Below, piece after piece: positions 1,218 through 8,974 of a stretch of DNA of 49,260 nucleotides (positions are counted from its first letter, which is position 1; every line of letters begins with the position of its first letter). Position numbers and translations under genes: made by a program. Source of the stretch: a virus; IMG/VR virus record IMGVR_UViG_3300033149_001239, positions 1 to 49,260 of that record; one strand, 5' to 3'. A model generated the notes under the pieces. It saw only the letters and a program-made list of their open reading frames with translations. It had not been told where the DNA came from and ran no database searches.

Positions 1218-1472
1218 TTAAGATGATGTTCTATTATTCTTTTTTCTATGAAGACGCATTTTTGTTCCGAGTCTTGAACCTCCAAAGTTCACCTTACCAC
1301 CTGAAGAAACCTTTCTATTGTTTCTGTCACTTCTTGTGTTCTTTGACCACTTCATAACATCTTTAGGTTTAAAGATATTTAAGTTTGCAGTTGTGCTTTC
1401 TTTTGCCTTACCCTCTTTGTACTTATTCTCTTCAGTTTGAGCGTTAGGTCTTGATTTAGTTTCATCACCCAT
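1218..1472 (-). CDS. Small basic hypothetical protein, first gene of the chain (84 aa)
   Basis: Start chosen at the ATG ending at 1472 (MGDETKSRPNAQTEENKYK). An upstream in-frame ATG at 1493 would lie inside the promoter box at 1491-1498, so it would not be transcribed. The protein has an acidic/polar first third and a basic last third ending KMRLHRKKNNRTSS. No family recognised. It heads the leftward small-basic-protein operon and is served by the minus-strand half of the divergent promoter. Confidence 0.6.
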   Translation of the reverse strand: MGDETKSRPNAQTEENKYKEGKAKESTTANLNIFKPKDVMKWSKNTRSDRNNRKVSSGGKVNFGGSRLGTKMRLHRKKNNRTSS

Positions 1473-1512: not shown

Positions 1513-1944
1513 ATGGTTGATTACCTCAAATATTGGCGAGTAATACGGTACTATGTCAAAAAGAAATATGACATAACTCAAGCAGAATTGGAAATGCTTC
1601 TCTTTTTGAGAAGCGAAAAATATTTTTCAAAAGATAACTTTGATGAGTTTGACGAACTCTTAAGTTGGGATAAAAATAGATTTGAAAAATTAAGAAAGGA
1701 AGGTTGGATAGATTCTTTTAGAAAGAAAGAAGGAAAGCGTAGAGCCATATACCAATTATCTTATAAGGCTCAAAGAATGATAACATCTTTATATAAAAAA
1801 TTAGAGGGAGAAGAACTACCTGAAAGTAAATCTTCAAACCCTCTATTCTTGGAAGGAGCAAACTATACAGATAAAGTGTATAGGAATTACATTAAAAAGT
1901 TAAACAAAACTATTCGACAACAACGACATCCCTCTCAGAGATAA
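1513..1944 (+). CDS. Winged-helix (MarR-like) DNA-binding protein (143 aa)
   Basis: Residues about 10-95 read like a winged helix: helices VIRYYVKKKY and TQAELEMLLFLRSEKYFSK, a recognition-helix region SWDKNRFEKLRKEGWIDSFR, then a wing around RKKEGKRRAIYQLSYKAQRMI. This pattern suits MarR/PadR-type regulators, which usually bind palindromic operators as dimers. The C-terminal 40 residues are basic. It is the only plus-strand gene inside the left minus-strand block, and its promoter is shared back-to-back with the leftward chain. Its 3' end overlaps groES convergently by 35 bases. It is a candidate reader of the dispersed palindrome, but nothing in the sequence proves that. Fold call by eye. 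Confidence 0.6.
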   Translation: MVDYLKYWRVIRYYVKKKYDITQAELEMLLFLRSEKYFSKDNFDEFDELLSWDKNRFEKLRKEGWIDSFRKKEGKRRAIYQLSYKAQRMITSLYKKLEGEELPESKSSNPLFLEGANYTDKVYRNYIKKLNKTIRQQRHPSQR

Positions 1945-2167
1945 CTGTATATTGTTCGTCTTTGATTACCATTGTATGTCCTGCTCTTGAGTCATAGTAA
2001 ATTATATCTTCTGCTGCAATGTGAGAAACATCTGTTCCCGGCTTTACAACTTTAGCTTTCTTGTATCTTATATTAGATACATCATCCGCAGATAATAACA
2101 AACCTGACTCTGTCTTAATCTCTTCTTTTATTTGTCTAATTAATATGTAGTGTCCTATTGGTTTCAT
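1910..2167 (-). CDS. groES: Phage GroES co-chaperonin (85 aa)
   Basis: Starts MKPIGHYILIRQI, matching the first GroES strand (usually KPL-x-DRV). A mobile-loop-like segment follows (KTESGLLLSADD, residues about 18-29), where GLLL replaces the usual G-I-V/I-L that contacts GroEL. The C-terminal half keeps the GroES core pattern (AKVVKPG, then EDIIYYDSRAGH near the usual YxKYxG position, then a terminal VVVVE). It is 85 residues, slightly shorter than bacterial GroES (about 95). It lies directly downstream of groEL with an ATGA overlap, the reverse of the usual bacterial groES-groEL order. It presumably caps the phage GroEL during folding of capsid or other virion proteins. Confidence 0.85.
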   Translation of the reverse strand: MKPIGHYILIRQIKEEIKTESGLLLSADDVSNIRYKKAKVVKPGTDVSHIAAEDIIYYDSRAGHTMVIKDEQYTVISERDVVVVE

Positions 2168-3759
2168 TTCTGTTCGTATGTTCTTGCCATTGTTATAATA
2201 GCATTGGTTGATAAAATAGTTACTGCAACCGACACTGCATTTTGTAATGCAGACTTAGTTACCTTTAGTGGGTCAATGATTCCCATCTTATACATATCTC
2301 CCCACTTTCTTTCCTTTACATCAAAGCCGTCATTGTATTCTACTTTTGAAGCTTCATACTGACCTTCATATTTAATTCCTGCATTTTCCCATATCTGAAC
2401 CATTGGAGCACGAAGTGCTTTCTCTAAAATTTGTTGAGCAACTGTAGGTTCACCTTTGCTGAAATCAATACGGTGTGCTTCTTGCATTAATGCTGAACCA
2501 CCTCCCGGAAGTATACCTTCCTCTAAAGCTGAACGTACTGCACATACTGCATCATCAACTCTATCGTATAGTTCTTTTTGTTCTAAGTCTGTTTGACCTC
2601 CAACGTATATTACACCAACACCACCATTTAGCGTAGCGATTCTACTTAAGATAAATTCCTTTTCCTCTTTACGCTTTTCATTTTTCATAGCCACCTTTAG
2701 TTCCTCTACTCTTTTTTGTAAAGAATCATTAACCTCTTCATCATCTTTAATGATGACTGTTGAGTCACGACTAACTATCACCTTAGCACAGTGACCCAAA
2801 TCTTTTTCTGTCATCAATGATAAATCATCTCCGGTCTTCTCACTAAAGTAAGTTGCTCCAACACTGACTGCAATGTCTTGCATTAGTTCGTGTTGTTTGT
2901 ATCCGAATGATGGTGGACCTATGGTACATAACTTTAAGTTACTCTTCATAACGTTAGCGGCTAAAGTGTTGGTTACGTTTTGCGAGGTTGGTGCTATAAT
3001 GAGTAACTTTTTATTTCCTTGTATAATTGGCTTAAGTATATTTTCTATGCTTAATATATTTTCAATTGGTGCATCACTAACTAATACATAACAATCCTCA
3101 AGAAGACATTCATCCTTCTTTTGATTGTTTACGAATAGTGGTGATTCATAACCACGTTGAATCTTTAATCCGTTTGTGGTTTCATAATATGTCTTTGATG
3201 TTTGAGATTTGTCTACGGCTACAATACCATCTTTACCAACCTTCTTATAAACTGATGCTATAATAGAACCTAAACCCTCATCGTTGTTTGCAGATATAGT
3301 GGCTACATCTTTCAGCATCTTATTAGTTACCTTCTTGGCTTTAGCCTTCAGGTTAGAAACAATCAAGTTCGTTTCTTTAATTAAGTCTCTAAGAACATCT
3401 GTCTTATTAGAGTCATTAATAATATGTTTAGCAGCATCTACAATTGCTTCAGTTAAAACAATAGCAGTAGTTGTTCCGTCACCTGCTTGTGTTGCGGTAC
3501 GCTCAGAAGCTTGTTTCATTATCTTGACTGCTAAGTGTTCTGTAGGGTCAAGTAGTGCAACTGCTTTAGCAACTGTTACTCCGTCTTTAGTTACGGTTAT
3601 TCCGTTTGTGTGATGAGGTGATTCAATGAGAACAGTTTGACCGGAAGGTCCTAATGTTGACTTAACTGCTTTAGCAATTTGTTCTATTCCTTTGAATAGT
3701 TTGTCTCTACCTTCGTTATCGAACTGTAAGTTCTTTGGTGTGTATCCTATGTCTGACAT
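2164..3759 (-). CDS. groEL: Phage GroEL chaperonin (531 aa)
   Basis: Full-length chaperonin-60. Conserved features: TLGPSG (35-40), DGVTVAK (59-65), GDGTTT (93-98, nucleotide-binding Asp94), ISANND (156-161), GGVGVIYVGG (379-388), RVDDA (400-404, with the Asp equivalent to the ATPase catalytic Asp398 of E. coli at about 403) and PGGGSAL (418-424). The apical domain (about 190-375) is divergent. The C-terminus ends MARTYEQK, without the Gly-Gly-Met tail of host GroELs. It is transcribed leftward from its own promoter (3781-3812) and overlaps groES by 4 bases. The intact catalytic positions suggest an active foldase, likely for virion proteins. Divergence and gene order argue it is a phage gene rather than a recent host pickup. 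Confidence 0.95.
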   Translation of the reverse strand: MSDIGYTPKNLQFDNEGRDKLFKGIEQIAKAVKSTLGPSGQTVLIESPHHTNGITVTKDGVTVAKAVALLDPTEHLAVKIMKQASERTATQAGDGTTTAIVLTEAIVDAAKHIINDSNKTDVLRDLIKETNLIVSNLKAKAKKVTNKMLKDVATISANNDEGLGSIIASVYKKVGKDGIVAVDKSQTSKTYYETTNGLKIQRGYESPLFVNNQKKDECLLEDCYVLVSDAPIENILSIENILKPIIQGNKKLLIIAPTSQNVTNTLAANVMKSNLKLCTIGPPSFGYKQHELMQDIAVSVGATYFSEKTGDDLSLMTEKDLGHCAKVIVSRDSTVIIKDDEEVNDSLQKRVEELKVAMKNEKRKEEKEFILSRIATLNGGVGVIYVGGQTDLEQKELYDRVDDAVCAVRSALEEGILPGGGSALMQEAHRIDFSKGEPTVAQQILEKALRAPMVQIWENAGIKYEGQYEASKVEYNDGFDVKERKWGDMYKMGIIDPLKVTKSALQNAVSVAVTILSTNAIITMARTYEQK

Positions 3760-5527: not shown

Positions 5528-5543
5528 GTGTCTTCAAAGACAC
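5528..5543 (+). repeat. Dispersed palindrome copy 3 (CA centre)
   Basis: GTGTCTTCAAAGACAC, intergenic; two bases after the 4881 gene stop and 20 before the amidoligase ATG. No T-run follows, so it is not a terminator. Confidence 0.95.
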
Positions 5544-5563
5544 AATCTAAAACCACAGATATT

Positions 5564-6514
5564 ATGAGTACAGAAATTCAATACACAACAGAGGGAAGAA
5601 GAGATAGAGGAGTTATGTCTTCGTACCACAGAAAGCCATCTTTCAGAGATATGTCGAAAGGTGCTAAGTCTTCAGATATTAAAGCATTGAAGTCTTCACA
5701 GAAACGTAATCTTGTCGATTTAGGCGATGGTAACTACGATTCCAAATTCACTATCGGAATGGAAGTAGAGAAGAACAGATTGCACAGAGGTGCAGTAAAA
5801 GAATACGCATTGTTTTGCGGATTCGAAAGAGATTCTTCTTGTGGCTATGAAGCAGTGACAAACATTCTTCCATTACTACCAAGTGGTAAGTGGAGAAACA
5901 AAGTTTTCAATATGATGTTTGAAGCAAGAAAGGTAATCGAGGACCAATACTCACCGAGTTCAATGAATTGTGGTGGACATATCACAATCGCAGTTCAAGG
6001 AATGAGTGGAGATGATTTGCTTGAAGCAGTTCGTAAGAATGCCGGAATCATTATGTCTTTATTCCGTAAGAGATTAAACAATTCTTACTGCCGAGGTAAT
6101 ATGACATTGATGCCATCAGACACAACAGAATCAATGATGTGGGGTGGTGGTAGATACAAAGTTATCCTTGTGAAAGGTAACTGCATCGAGTTTAGATTGC
6201 CAAGCAGATTTCAATCTGTAAAGCAGATGATGAGAAGATACGAGTTGATGTATGAGTTACTTGATTTCTCAATCAACAATCCTAACGGAAGCCACAATAC
6301 ATTCCTTAAAAGAGTTACACCAATCGTGAAGTCAATGTACAACAATGATGAAACGAAAGTGGCTGAGATAATCTCTTTAGCGAAATCATTCCGCAAGATG
6401 ATTATTACTCACAAAGTGAATCGTGATGTAATTCCATTCTGTGACCCAATGCGAAGATTAGATGCACAGAAATGGTACGACAGAGATTTGTTAAGAAACG
6501 GATACAGACCATAA
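5564..6514 (+). CDS. Amidoligase-like enzyme (glutamine-synthetase-fold COOH-NH2 ligase, 316 aa)
   Basis: Start placed at the ATG at 5564 (MSTEIQY), because the in-frame GTG at 5528 is the first base triplet of a palindrome copy. Motifs fit the Amidoligase_2 family: IGMEVE (64-69, for G-x-E-x-E), DSSCGYEAV (90-98), NCGGHITIAV (135-144, for CG-x-H-x-H) and CIEFRLPSR (207-215, for E-F-R). In that family these acidic and His residues bind metal and ATP for joining a carboxylate to an amine. The second His of CG-x-H-x-H is replaced by Thr here, so chemistry may differ. The natural substrate is unknown. The GAT-II/GGCT fusion lies 1.3 kb downstream, and amidoligases are often found near such genes. 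Confidence 0.75.
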   Translation: MSTEIQYTTEGRRDRGVMSSYHRKPSFRDMSKGAKSSDIKALKSSQKRNLVDLGDGNYDSKFTIGMEVEKNRLHRGAVKEYALFCGFERDSSCGYEAVTNILPLLPSGKWRNKVFNMMFEARKVIEDQYSPSSMNCGGHITIAVQGMSGDDLLEAVRKNAGIIMSLFRKRLNNSYCRGNMTLMPSDTTESMMWGGGRYKVILVKGNCIEFRLPSRFQSVKQMMRRYELMYELLDFSINNPNGSHNTFLKRVTPIVKSMYNNDETKVAEIISLAKSFRKMIITHKVNRDVIPFCDPMRRLDAQKWYDRDLLRNGYRP

Positions 6515-6546
6515 CAAACAATATCCTAAGCAAGATGTAAAACTGC

Positions 6547-6601
6547 TTTCTGTATCGGAATGTGTATTCCGGCTGATGATTCCAAAAGGATGAAACAGAA
6601 A
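6547..6601 (+). ncRNA. Type III hammerhead-ribozyme-like RNA
   Basis: In the 109-base gap before the 6624 gene. Stem III TTTCTGT (6547-6553) pairs perfectly with ACAGAAA (6595-6601). The cleavage triplet is GUA, with cleavage predicted after A6554. Stem I TCGGAAT (6555-6561) / ATTCCGG (6566-6572) is 7 bp (one U-G) with loop GTGT. The core CTGATGA is at 6573-6579. Stem II TCC/GGA (6581-6583/6588-6590) has loop AAAA. GAA (6592-6594) and A6595 complete the core. Both conserved core strings are present in the right order and frame. The weak point is U6580-U6591 at position 10.1-11.1, normally G-C, leaving stem II at 3 bp. It is read in the same direction as the flanking early genes, so it could cut the early mRNA. 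Confidence 0.7.
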
Positions 6602-6623
6602 CATTAATTTAATTTATAGTAAA

Positions 6624-6860
6624 ATGAAAAATCAAATCAAAAATTACGCAGAATCAGTTCTGTACATCGCAATCACTTTAGGAGTTTTCTCAATGGTTGG
6701 AAGACTATTAGTTCACATTGTTTTTAATGATGCAAGAAGTTTATTACAGACCATCAGTGGTGCATTCTCAATGTTCATTGTATTTGCATTCTTGTTGTTC
6801 TGTATGTGGGCAACAATAGGTTTAATTGTAGCGGACATAAAAGAAAGACACAATGCATAG
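6624..6860 (+). CDS. Small membrane protein, two transmembrane segments (78 aa)
   Basis: Two hydrophobic stretches, about residues 11-30 (VLYIAITLGVFSMVGRLLV) and 44-68 (ISGAFSMFIVFAFLLFCMW and onward), separated by a short polar loop with NDAR, and a charged end (DIKERHNA). Size and topology suit a small holin, and a lysozyme-like gene lies 350 bases downstream, but holins cannot be recognised by sequence alone. It starts 22 bases after the hammerhead-like RNA, so it is the first gene on any cleaved 3' product. The next gene overlaps its end. Confidence 0.6.
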   Translation: MKNQIKNYAESVLYIAITLGVFSMVGRLLVHIVFNDARSLLQTISGAFSMFIVFAFLLFCMWATIGLIVADIKERHNA

Positions 6861-7021: not shown

Positions 7022-7210
7022 ATGAAAGCAACATTACAATTCGAAACCGGCAAGATTCCTTACGGAAGAGGCAAGTCTCTTTGGACATTGACCAAGGAGT
7101 TTAAAGACCAAAAGCATATGGATAATTTCATAGCTTACATACACAGAACAAAAGGATATTACTTAGATGAAGTATTCTTAGAAGAAGATAACCAAATCAA
7201 ATCAAAATGA
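7022..7210 (+). CDS. Small hypothetical protein (62 aa)
   Basis: Sequence MKATLQFETGKIPYGRGKSL, then a helix KDQKHMDNFIAYIHRTKG and an acidic end. No family recognised. It sits one base after the preceding stop and overlaps the lysozyme-like gene by ATGA (7207-7210), so it belongs to the same translationally coupled run. Confidence 0.6.
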   Translation: MKATLQFETGKIPYGRGKSLWTLTKEFKDQKHMDNFIAYIHRTKGYYLDEVFLEEDNQIKSK

Positions 7211-7749
7211 AAAAATTTATATTACTATCAGCATTATCTGTGGTTGGATATGTGGGCAGTGATGTGTCTTCAAAGACACAAACTGCAGAAGTCGGGAGGG
7301 AAGAAATTCCTTCCCTTCTTTTACAATCAGCAGACACCGTAGCAAATACCGTAGACATAGTCCCGGTAACATTGGAACATAAAATAACGTGGGATGATTT
7401 CGTTAACGCAGTCATCTATGTAGAATCAAGAGGTAATGATTCGGCATATCACAAAAAAGAAAAGGCAGTCGGTTGTCTACAAATTAGACCAATAATGGTC
7501 AGGGAAGTAAACAGAATTCTCAGGAAGCACAAGGTCAATATCAAGTTCGAAATGGATGACAGATGGAACAGACAGAAGTCAATTGATATGTTTGACATAA
7601 TGGCTGAAGAGGTTGAATGTTGTTTAGGGTTGACTCAATTAGAGTTCTTCGAAATCGTTGCAAGAAAATGGAATGGTGGACCAAGAGGACACAAGAAGCA
7701 GTCAACAGAAATCTATTGGGAAAGAGTTCAAAAAGAATTATTAGATTAA
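7207..7749 (+). CDS. Exported lysozyme / lytic transglycosylase-like protein (180 aa)
   Basis: An N-terminal signal sequence (MKKFILLSALSVVGYVGS) is followed by a polar linker of about 40 residues, then a lysozyme-like domain. VIYVESRGN (69-77) carries the candidate catalytic Glu73, and AVGCLQIRP (87-95) matches the G-x-x-Q-I motif of GH23-type transglycosylases. These enzymes cut peptidoglycan glycan strands. The signal suggests export by the host, so it may act as the endolysin or in a later cell-wall role. A palindrome copy (7264-7279) encodes V-S-S-K-T (20-24) exactly at the signal/linker junction. The adjacent two-TM protein at 6624 could be its holin. Confidence 0.75.
   Translation: MKKFILLSALSVVGYVGSDVSSKTQTAEVGREEIPSLLLQSADTVANTVDIVPVTLEHKITWDDFVNAVIYVESRGNDSAYHKKEKAVGCLQIRPIMVREVNRILRKHKVNIKFEMDDRWNRQKSIDMFDIMAEEVECCLGLTQLEFFEIVARKWNGGPRGHKKQSTEIYWERVQKELLD
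7264..7279 (+). repeat. Dispersed palindrome copy 4 (CA centre)
   Basis: Inside the lysozyme-like gene at the signal/linker junction; reads V-S-S-K-T. Confidence 0.95.
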
Positions 7750-7845: not shown

Positions 7846-8925
7846 ATGTGTGTAATTATTATTAAACAGAAGAACAATGTGATGTCTGAAGAGATAGCAA
7901 AGACATCATCAAAAATTAATCCTCACGGATTAGGAATCATTTGGTTGGATACCTTTGAGGTAACTTACCACAAATCAAAAGACTATCGCAAACTATTAAC
8001 CGAGAGACCATTCATTGCTCACTTTAGATATGCAACAGTAGGTGCAATCAACAGAGCAAACACTCATCCATTTGTATGTGGTAACAACAAAGATGAATAC
8101 CTTATGATGAATGGAACAATCAAAGGTCTTGGTAGTGCAGAGTTATGTGATTCAAAAGCATTAGCTATTCAGCTTGGCTCAATGAATCGCAGAAATTGGA
8201 AGACACATCTTGAGCAGTACGATTCAAGATTCGTTTCAGTAAATGTTCGTACTCGTTCATTCCAAATTTACAATCGTAATATGTATACATATCGTGATGG
8301 CATTTGGTATTCAAAAGCAAATGTGTTACAAGACAACTTGATTGCAGTGTATGGAACATTAAAGAAAGGATTCAACAACTATTACTCTTACCTTACAAAT
8401 GCAAAGCACATTGGTAGAGGCAAGACACAAGACAAATATCCTTTAATCGTTGATGGGTTACCATTCTTAGTAAACAAGAAAGGTGTAGGTCACAATGTTG
8501 TGGTTGATGTATTCAAGGTTAGTGATATGCAACTTAAAAAGGTTGACCAACTTGAGGGACATCCACAATGGTACAAGAGAGTTCAGATACCGGTCAAGTT
8601 AAAGAATCGCACATTGAATTGTTGGATATACTTTAATCCAAAAGATATTCATCCGGACACAGAGTTACATAGCGAGTACAAACAGACAAGGATTTATCCG
8701 CAGCGAAGTTTTACTTTCGATGATGTTCAGCCAACTTACGATGCAACTGAGAATCATCAAGCAATAGACATCGGTTGGGATGATAATGATTTCCCAACAT
8801 CAGAGACACCAACTTGTATTGATTGTTTCAATGATGTTGAACACGATATGTTTCACAACTACTACTGCTCTTCTTGTGGTGGTTGGTTTAAGGAAGATGA
8901 GATATTAAATTTCAACAAACAATAA
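7846..8925 (+). CDS. Class II glutamine amidotransferase - gamma-glutamylcyclotransferase - zinc ribbon fusion (359 aa)
   Basis: Three parts. Residues 1-160: class II amidotransferase (Ntn hydrolase) with catalytic Cys2 exposed after Met removal, AHFRYAT (58-64), NTHPF (72-76) and MMNGT (87-91). Residues 163-270: gamma-glutamylcyclotransferase/AIG2-like domain with AVYGTLKKG (167-175) and candidate catalytic Glu237 in DQLEG. C-terminus: a zinc ribbon with C-x2-C (324, 327) and C-x2-C (341, 344). Class II amidotransferases release ammonia from glutamine. GGCT domains cleave gamma-glutamyl amines to 5-oxoproline. No synthetase domain follows the amidotransferase. With the amidoligase at 5564 it suggests making and breaking of amide-linked Glu adducts on an unknown target. 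Confidence 0.8.
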   Translation: MCVIIIKQKNNVMSEEIAKTSSKINPHGLGIIWLDTFEVTYHKSKDYRKLLTERPFIAHFRYATVGAINRANTHPFVCGNNKDEYLMMNGTIKGLGSAELCDSKALAIQLGSMNRRNWKTHLEQYDSRFVSVNVRTRSFQIYNRNMYTYRDGIWYSKANVLQDNLIAVYGTLKKGFNNYYSYLTNAKHIGRGKTQDKYPLIVDGLPFLVNKKGVGHNVVVDVFKVSDMQLKKVDQLEGHPQWYKRVQIPVKLKNRTLNCWIYFNPKDIHPDTELHSEYKQTRIYPQRSFTFDDVQPTYDATENHQAIDIGWDDNDFPTSETPTCIDCFNDVEHDMFHNYYCSSCGGWFKEDEILNFNKQ

Positions 8926-8942
8926 ATTAATTAATAACCCGA

Positions 8943-8974
8943 GGGGTGTGTCTTCAAAGACACATCCCTTTTTT
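8943..8974 (+). terminator. Rho-independent terminator built on a palindrome copy
   Basis: The dispersed palindrome (8948-8963) is extended to a 12-bp stem: GGGGTGTGTCTT (8943-8954) with AAGACACATCCC (8957-8968), one G-U pair, followed by six T (8969-8974). It lies 17 bases after the stop of the 7846 gene and ends 12 bases before the next ATG (8987), so it would attenuate that gene. Confidence 0.8.
8948..8963 (+). repeat. Dispersed palindrome copy 6 (CA centre, terminator)
   Basis: Forms the core of the terminator at 8943-8974. Confidence 0.95.

Follow-up and report, generated by a model that had tools for sequence, protein, structure and literature searches.

Hammerhead ribozymes occur in phages, and their purpose there has been described as open or unknown (PMC6155905, PMC10085705). 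The system closest to the locus analyzed here is the hammerhead of Pseudomonas phage PaP3, which Perreault et al. 2011 (PMC3088659) include among active natural variants with core variations and discuss for its U10.1-U11.1 mismatch; the same paper provides natural, active U-U exceptions to G10.1-C11.1, a strong consensus that is not strictly defining. Also covered there are hammerhead clusters of Agrobacterium prophages, for instance around ardA, which, like the element described below, part phage-operon genes and for which processing into gene-length mRNAs has been proposed (PMC3088659). The Agrobacterium clusters vary in hammerhead type and the identity of their genes is not constant, whereas in the present case a single slot, directly behind the same gene, persists across a phage group and is taken by other RNA structures where the hammerhead is missing. 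The novelty of this locus would lie in such a conserved, exchangeable slot, the hammerhead type itself (PaP3-type) being already known.

The window analyzed here is a 49,260-base stretch of IMG/VR record IMGVR_UViG_3300033149_001239, which is probably a fragment, since its relatives measure roughly 60 kb. It belongs to a phage that infects Flavobacterium-type bacteria, with a terminase that matches that of MW202828 at 76% and those of Flavobacterium elemoviruses at 47%. An earlier note on this DNA had read a type III hammerhead with all its parts in order, and the coordinates it gave for those parts are right (Table 1). Three helices surround the junction; stems I and II each terminate in a loop and the element begins and ends in stem III, as defines type III, and the catalytic core C3UGANGA9...G12AA14 is intact at 6573-6579 and 6592-6594. 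Stem III comprises seven pairs, including U16.1-A15.1 (U6553-A6595), and runs into an NUH cleavage triplet (G6552-U6553-A6554); stem I begins with a U-G pair and carries the loop GUGU (6562-6565). The consensus G10.1-C11.1 opening of stem II is replaced by U6580-U6591. One of the mutation targets named in the earlier note, G6577, was mis-numbered: position 6577 is U7, a non-conserved core position, and the core guanines are 6575 (G5), 6578 (G8) and 6592 (G12).

Table 1. Coordinates of the hammerhead element, its neighboring genes and the alternative slot motif (window positions unless a contig is given).
Feature	Position	Strand	Basis or remark
Upstream gene, amidoligase-like according to the earlier note, no Pfam match	5528..6514	+	Hammerhead directly behind it in 31/37 related loci
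Type III hammerhead ribozyme, entire element	6547..6601	+	Sequence, Rfam, model R2
Stem III 5' strand, UUUCUGU (16.7-16.1), partner of 6595-6601	6547..6553	+	Sequence; covariation
A17, final base of the GUA triplet; predicted cut 6554/6555	6554	+	Predicted from homology to PaP3 and Hammerhead_3
Stem-loop I, 7 bp, 6555-6561 UCGGAAU / 6566-6572 AUUCCGG	6555..6572	+	Sequence; compensatory pairs versus L144/L145
Core CUGAUGA (C3 U4 G5 A6 U7 G8 A9)	6573..6579	+	Invariant in 75 relatives
Stem-loop II, U10.1 (6580)-U11.1 (6591) mismatch, UCC 6581-6583 / GGA 6588-6590, loop AAAA	6580..6591	+	Covariation
Core G12 A13 A14 and A15.1 (GAA + A15.1)	6592..6595	+	Invariant in alignment A1
Stem III 3' strand, ACAGAAA (15.1-15.7)	6595..6601	+	Sequence
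Downstream gene, 78-aa small membrane protein	6624..6860	+	ATG 23 nt past ribozyme
Lysozyme-like (SLT) gene, downstream message	7207..7749	+	PF01464, E 7e-4, below cut-off
GGACT/class-II GATase protein gene	7846-8925		
Slot motif ACCA..CC-helix-loop AGAAAC-helix-GGAUUUGGUGGU	L153:4974-5012, L158:4970-5009, L268:about 1380-1430		

Comparison of 301 bases around the site with phage genomes by blastn returned as best matches 57-nt segments at 86-88% identity in PaP3-type Pseudomonas phages (E 9e-11 to one of them), which span almost exactly the element and are intergenic in the annotated Pseudomonas phage records listed. The PaP3 hammerhead, UUUGUCGUA/UCGGGAU GUGU GUCCCGG CUGAUGA UUCC UAAA GGAU GAAACGAC, has homologues in 71 further Pseudomonas phage records (72 with PaP3), and it shares with the window element the GUA triplet, the U10.1-U11.1 mismatch, loops of the GUGU and NAAA type, a 7-bp stem I and an intergenic position just 5' of a gene. 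The sequences of stems III and I differ between the two through compensatory change, and stem III has seven pairs in the window but five in PaP3. Host group and neighboring genes differ as well, and stem II of PaP3 overlaps the ribosome-binding sequence (AAGGA), whereas the start codon in the window lies 23 nt further on. PaP3 also contains a weak second hammerhead-like match (AY078382.2:44071-44124, minus strand, 19.2 bits).

The half-pattern CUGAUGA-N12-GAAACAGAAA, with up to two mismatches, occurs once in the window against 0.05 occurrences expected. The minimum-free-energy fold of 6540-6606 is the hammerhead structure, but its energy is just 1.4 standard deviations below that of shuffled sequences, ordinary for the composition and not discriminating, so energy alone is no proof of a hammerhead. 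The covariance-model search called for in the earlier note yielded a significant match, with Rfam RF00008 (Hammerhead_3) aligning end to end over 6547-6601 (34.4 bits, E 1.5e-6, 71 nt searched), below the gathering score of 48.5. A canonical relative in L004 likewise falls below that score (45.3 bits). The window element agrees with RF00008 in core and helix order, but has U-U in place of G10.1-C11.1 and a stem II shorter than that of the model. At the gathering threshold Rfam reported a tRNA only and no hammerhead, and in a permissive search of 501 nt the hammerhead was absent from the list, presumably because of filters; some hammerheads of this group, with their short stem II, escape detection at the current Rfam gathering threshold. 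A covariance model (R2) derived from 38 canonical relatives with C17 and G-C, the window and all U-U members being left out, scored the window element at 58.2 bits (E 9.5e-16). A separate search for further copies in the window found none, the next best match reaching 9.8 bits. We define a PaP3-like group of phage hammerheads by a 7-bp stem I with a GWGU-type loop and a stem II of 3-4 bp with an NAAA loop, and the R2 score and blastn match place the window element in it, with homology to other members above chance.

A complete hammerhead is present in all 30 IMG/VR contigs that contain the pattern GGCUGAUGANNCC-N4-GGNNGAAAC, type III in 27 and type I in 3, although this pattern leaves the 5' part and stem III almost unconstrained; a second, looser pattern scan revealed many more. 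An alignment of 75 non-redundant type III elements (A1), across which the catalytic core bases are invariant, shows changes on both sides in 14 of 16 pairs and 378 double-change cells versus 106 in shuffles; slid structures collapse in this test, and the U-U subset covaries alike. Elements in A1 were stem-filtered by the scanner, which inflates the pairing percentage, a bias mostly avoided by R2 and by A4, a set defined by synteny that contains 116 double-change cells versus 36 in shuffles. The covariation in related phages that the earlier note asked for is thus strong. Related phages harbor one to five hammerheads each, often clustered within a few kilobases; a type III model match is absent in 4 of 16 related contigs searched whole, and the ribozyme is therefore not indispensable.

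The same loose pattern also recovered numerous type I hammerheads from phage contigs (L034-L143), several per contig in L127 and L142. Of 86 pattern sites on bacterial genome contigs (L181-L257), 77 carry a type III hammerhead of the same construction, largely in Patescibacteria and in some cases beside ordinary cellular-type genes, as between ABC transporter genes in L199; these contigs may be misbinned phage, and the open-access literature searched held nothing specific on hammerheads in Patescibacteria. The cultured Flavobacterium phage elemoA (MT497017.1:19084-19138, minus strand, L264) carries a type III hammerhead 15 nt before a gene, with a CUGAAGA core and a GUCA/UGAC stem II.

The strongest signal outside the helices, 10.1 with 11.1 itself aside, links position 17 with the first position of stem II. 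Among 140 distinct type III elements (L002-L180), C17 occurs with G10.1-C11.1 in 79 of 79 cases, A17 with U-U in 38 of 51, and U17 in 8 of 10 with either A-A or U-U. The association also holds between copies of a single locus (0/10000 permutations). Exceptions are some contigs of bacteria and L154/L155, which lie outside the 140, have a stem II of only 2 bp and combine C17 with U-U. This suggests contact or mutual compensation between position 17 and the 10.1-11.1 pair within the active site.

The position of the element is conserved together with its structure. Among 37 viral contigs with a relative of the upstream gene, the slot directly 3' of its stop codon keeps its position across 49-98% protein identity of that gene and usually contains the hammerhead (Table 1). 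The nearest relatives, L144 and L145, show 96% identity over 2.5 kb around the element. Between the genes, their DNA has hardly changed outside stem-loop I, which differs at 9 of its 18 bases yet keeps every pair, four pairs having changed on both sides and one from U-G to U-A. The window element thus lies at a place kept between co-directional genes and near the next start codon, as the positional definition of an intercistronic processing element requires. The relative MW202828 possesses a homologue of the upstream gene, with no convincing match to the hammerhead model.

In the six slots that lack a hammerhead, we identified a tRNA-like structure with a T-arm (L160, L165, L169, L179) and a shared hairpin motif (L153, L158). 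The former combine an acceptor-like stem with the T-loop of a tRNA (UUCGANU), but ARAGORN detected no tRNA in any of the four, which rules out an ordinary tRNA; a plain energy fold recovers T-arm and acceptor clearly in L165 and L169 but not in L160 and L179, which are weaker cases. Their minimal form, consisting of a 7-bp acceptor, a linker of about 11 nt with AUGGU or similar, and a T-arm without an anticodon arm, is also found elsewhere in hammerhead phages at the same kind of intergenic site, such as before the upstream gene in L166. Such elements were noted at L165:5012, L166:3937, L170:5941, L172:5642, L173:5647, L175:3318, L160:3906, L096:5201 and L064:4850, mostly intergenic where read, and among the matches listed from the viral-contig scan (at least 125 sites), 58 of 125 have at least six of the seven acceptor pairs. 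They are possible substrates of RNase P, which may also cut the tRNA-like forms in the slot; the open-access literature searched contained nothing specific on phage tRNA-like cleavage slots. The hairpin motif, AGAAACGG...GAUUUGGUGGU, is also present in L268; it had no meaningful Rfam match in L153, and is possibly another ribozyme. Because a different RNA structure fills the slot when the hammerhead is absent, these data point to intercistronic RNA cutting as its conserved function. A more specific proposal, which we offer as a speculative one, is that of a fixed operon cleavage slot filled by mechanistically unrelated cutters: a hammerhead, a minimal tRNA mimic cut by the RNase P of the host, or a third motif, perhaps a ribozyme not yet described.

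The genes flanking these elements show recurrent features. The gene upstream of 162 elements is amidoligase-like in 49 and encodes a GATase/GGACT protein in 28 (23 and 15, respectively, for 112 elements obtained from the DNA pattern alone), while the downstream genes are short and diverse, and in most relatives the next AUG follows GAAA by 10-55 nt. The names that the earlier note gave to the neighboring genes have fared less well than its ribozyme: the amidoligase designation found no Pfam match, the lysozyme call has a sub-threshold SLT match only, and PHROGs assigned the flanking proteins no function. Within the 40 nt preceding stem III, 118 of the 162 elements have a hairpin of 6 bp or more (31 in shuffles), which after cleavage would sit close to the 3' terminus of the upstream RNA; this hairpin is missing at the window element and in L144 and L145. 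No Bacteroidota-type promoter (TAnnTTTG) was found in the intergenic gap of the window, a candidate being located before 7846, and hence the element is probably transcribed from upstream.

The window also contains a phage-borne GroEL (Pfam Cpn60) and an adjoining GroES-sized protein, at 2164-3759 and 1910-2167 (-), and 12 occurrences, both strands counted, of the hairpin-forming 16-mer GTGTCTTCAAAGACAC, at positions 586, 4654, 5528, 7264, 7809, 8948, 11837, 13129, 17153, 25494, 41552 and 48689. This 16-mer lies partly within reading frames as SSKT, resembles a terminator core at 8948, and stands just 5' of the hammerhead in many relatives.

Taken as a chance or decayed hammerhead-like sequence, the element would be inactive, as its unremarkable folding energy and its Rfam score below gathering might allow; homology, however, already contradicts a chance origin, and with a held-out model matching at E about 1e-15 and a stem I replaced with compensation inside 96% identical flanks, we consider this reading extremely improbable. 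The short stem II with its U-U would also suit a structured leader or RNA hairpin acting on stability or translation, with cleavage slow or incidental in the window copy, and in PaP3 the location of the ribosome-binding AAGGA inside stem II implies that folding and ribosome binding would compete there. A plain hairpin would nonetheless have no need for some of the core bases that are invariant in the 75 A1 relatives, and PaP3 is active despite the same mismatch (PMC3088659); we judge a leader of this kind distinctly unlikely.

A genuine ribozyme could, alternatively, be a selfish or passenger element that hops between phage intergenic sites and is tolerated as little harmful. The same element is indeed found in very distant Pseudomonas podoviruses, Flavobacterium-type podoviruses and Patescibacteria contigs, in up to five copies per phage, and other genes adjoin hammerheads too. 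This explanation does not account for the place kept behind the upstream gene over 49-98% protein divergence, nor for the unrelated structures that substitute where the hammerhead is missing, and the stretches read showed neither a mobile-element gene nor flanking repeats; we regard it as unlikely. The element is very probably a PaP3-type, self-cleaving type III hammerhead that is transcribed in a plus-strand operon, and it probably serves intercistronic mRNA processing. PaP3 homology, the covariance models, compensatory change and synteny together uphold the earlier reading of the fold, of the GUA triplet with a short, U-U-bearing stem II, and of a predicted cut after A6554.

The window copy is, in our judgment, highly likely to cleave itself. 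Its RNA would fold co-transcriptionally once the polymerase has passed 6601, with the conserved GUGU and AAAA loops bringing stem-loops I and II into contact. The 2'-OH of A6554 would then attack the phosphate to 6555. Cleavage would give the upstream mRNA a terminal 2',3'-cyclic phosphate, and the membrane-protein/lysozyme mRNA would start at stem-loop I with a 5'-OH; these ends may influence mRNA stability. The earlier note had suspected weak activity on account of the U-U: the listing of PaP3, with the same mismatch, as active partly answers this concern, but a short stem II that opens with U-U may still slow the window ribozyme.

Intercistronic processing is the probable role of the element. 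The repeated presence of the same gene upstream hints at 3'-end formation, and the short distance to start codons at leader trimming; both are compatible with a natural insulator standing between small genes that can be exchanged and genes that stay constant. Without any stop in transcription, cleavage would fix where the downstream message begins and where the upstream message ends, so that neighboring genes could be exchanged without altering each other's leader or tail. RiboJ-type insulators of synthetic biology, man-made from sTRSV, likewise place a hammerhead just 5' of a start codon and give the mRNA a fixed 5' end, whereas the window element is natural and intercistronic, and insulation is here a tentative candidate for the selected benefit.

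The recurrence of one slot across many phages, occupied sometimes by tRNA-like structures instead, predicts that selection keeps mRNA cutting there and makes the purpose of these phage hammerheads testable, with elemoA, an isolate that carries a hammerhead, as an experimental system. If the exchangeable slot is real, these natural cutting elements would be insulators that let phages shuffle small genes.
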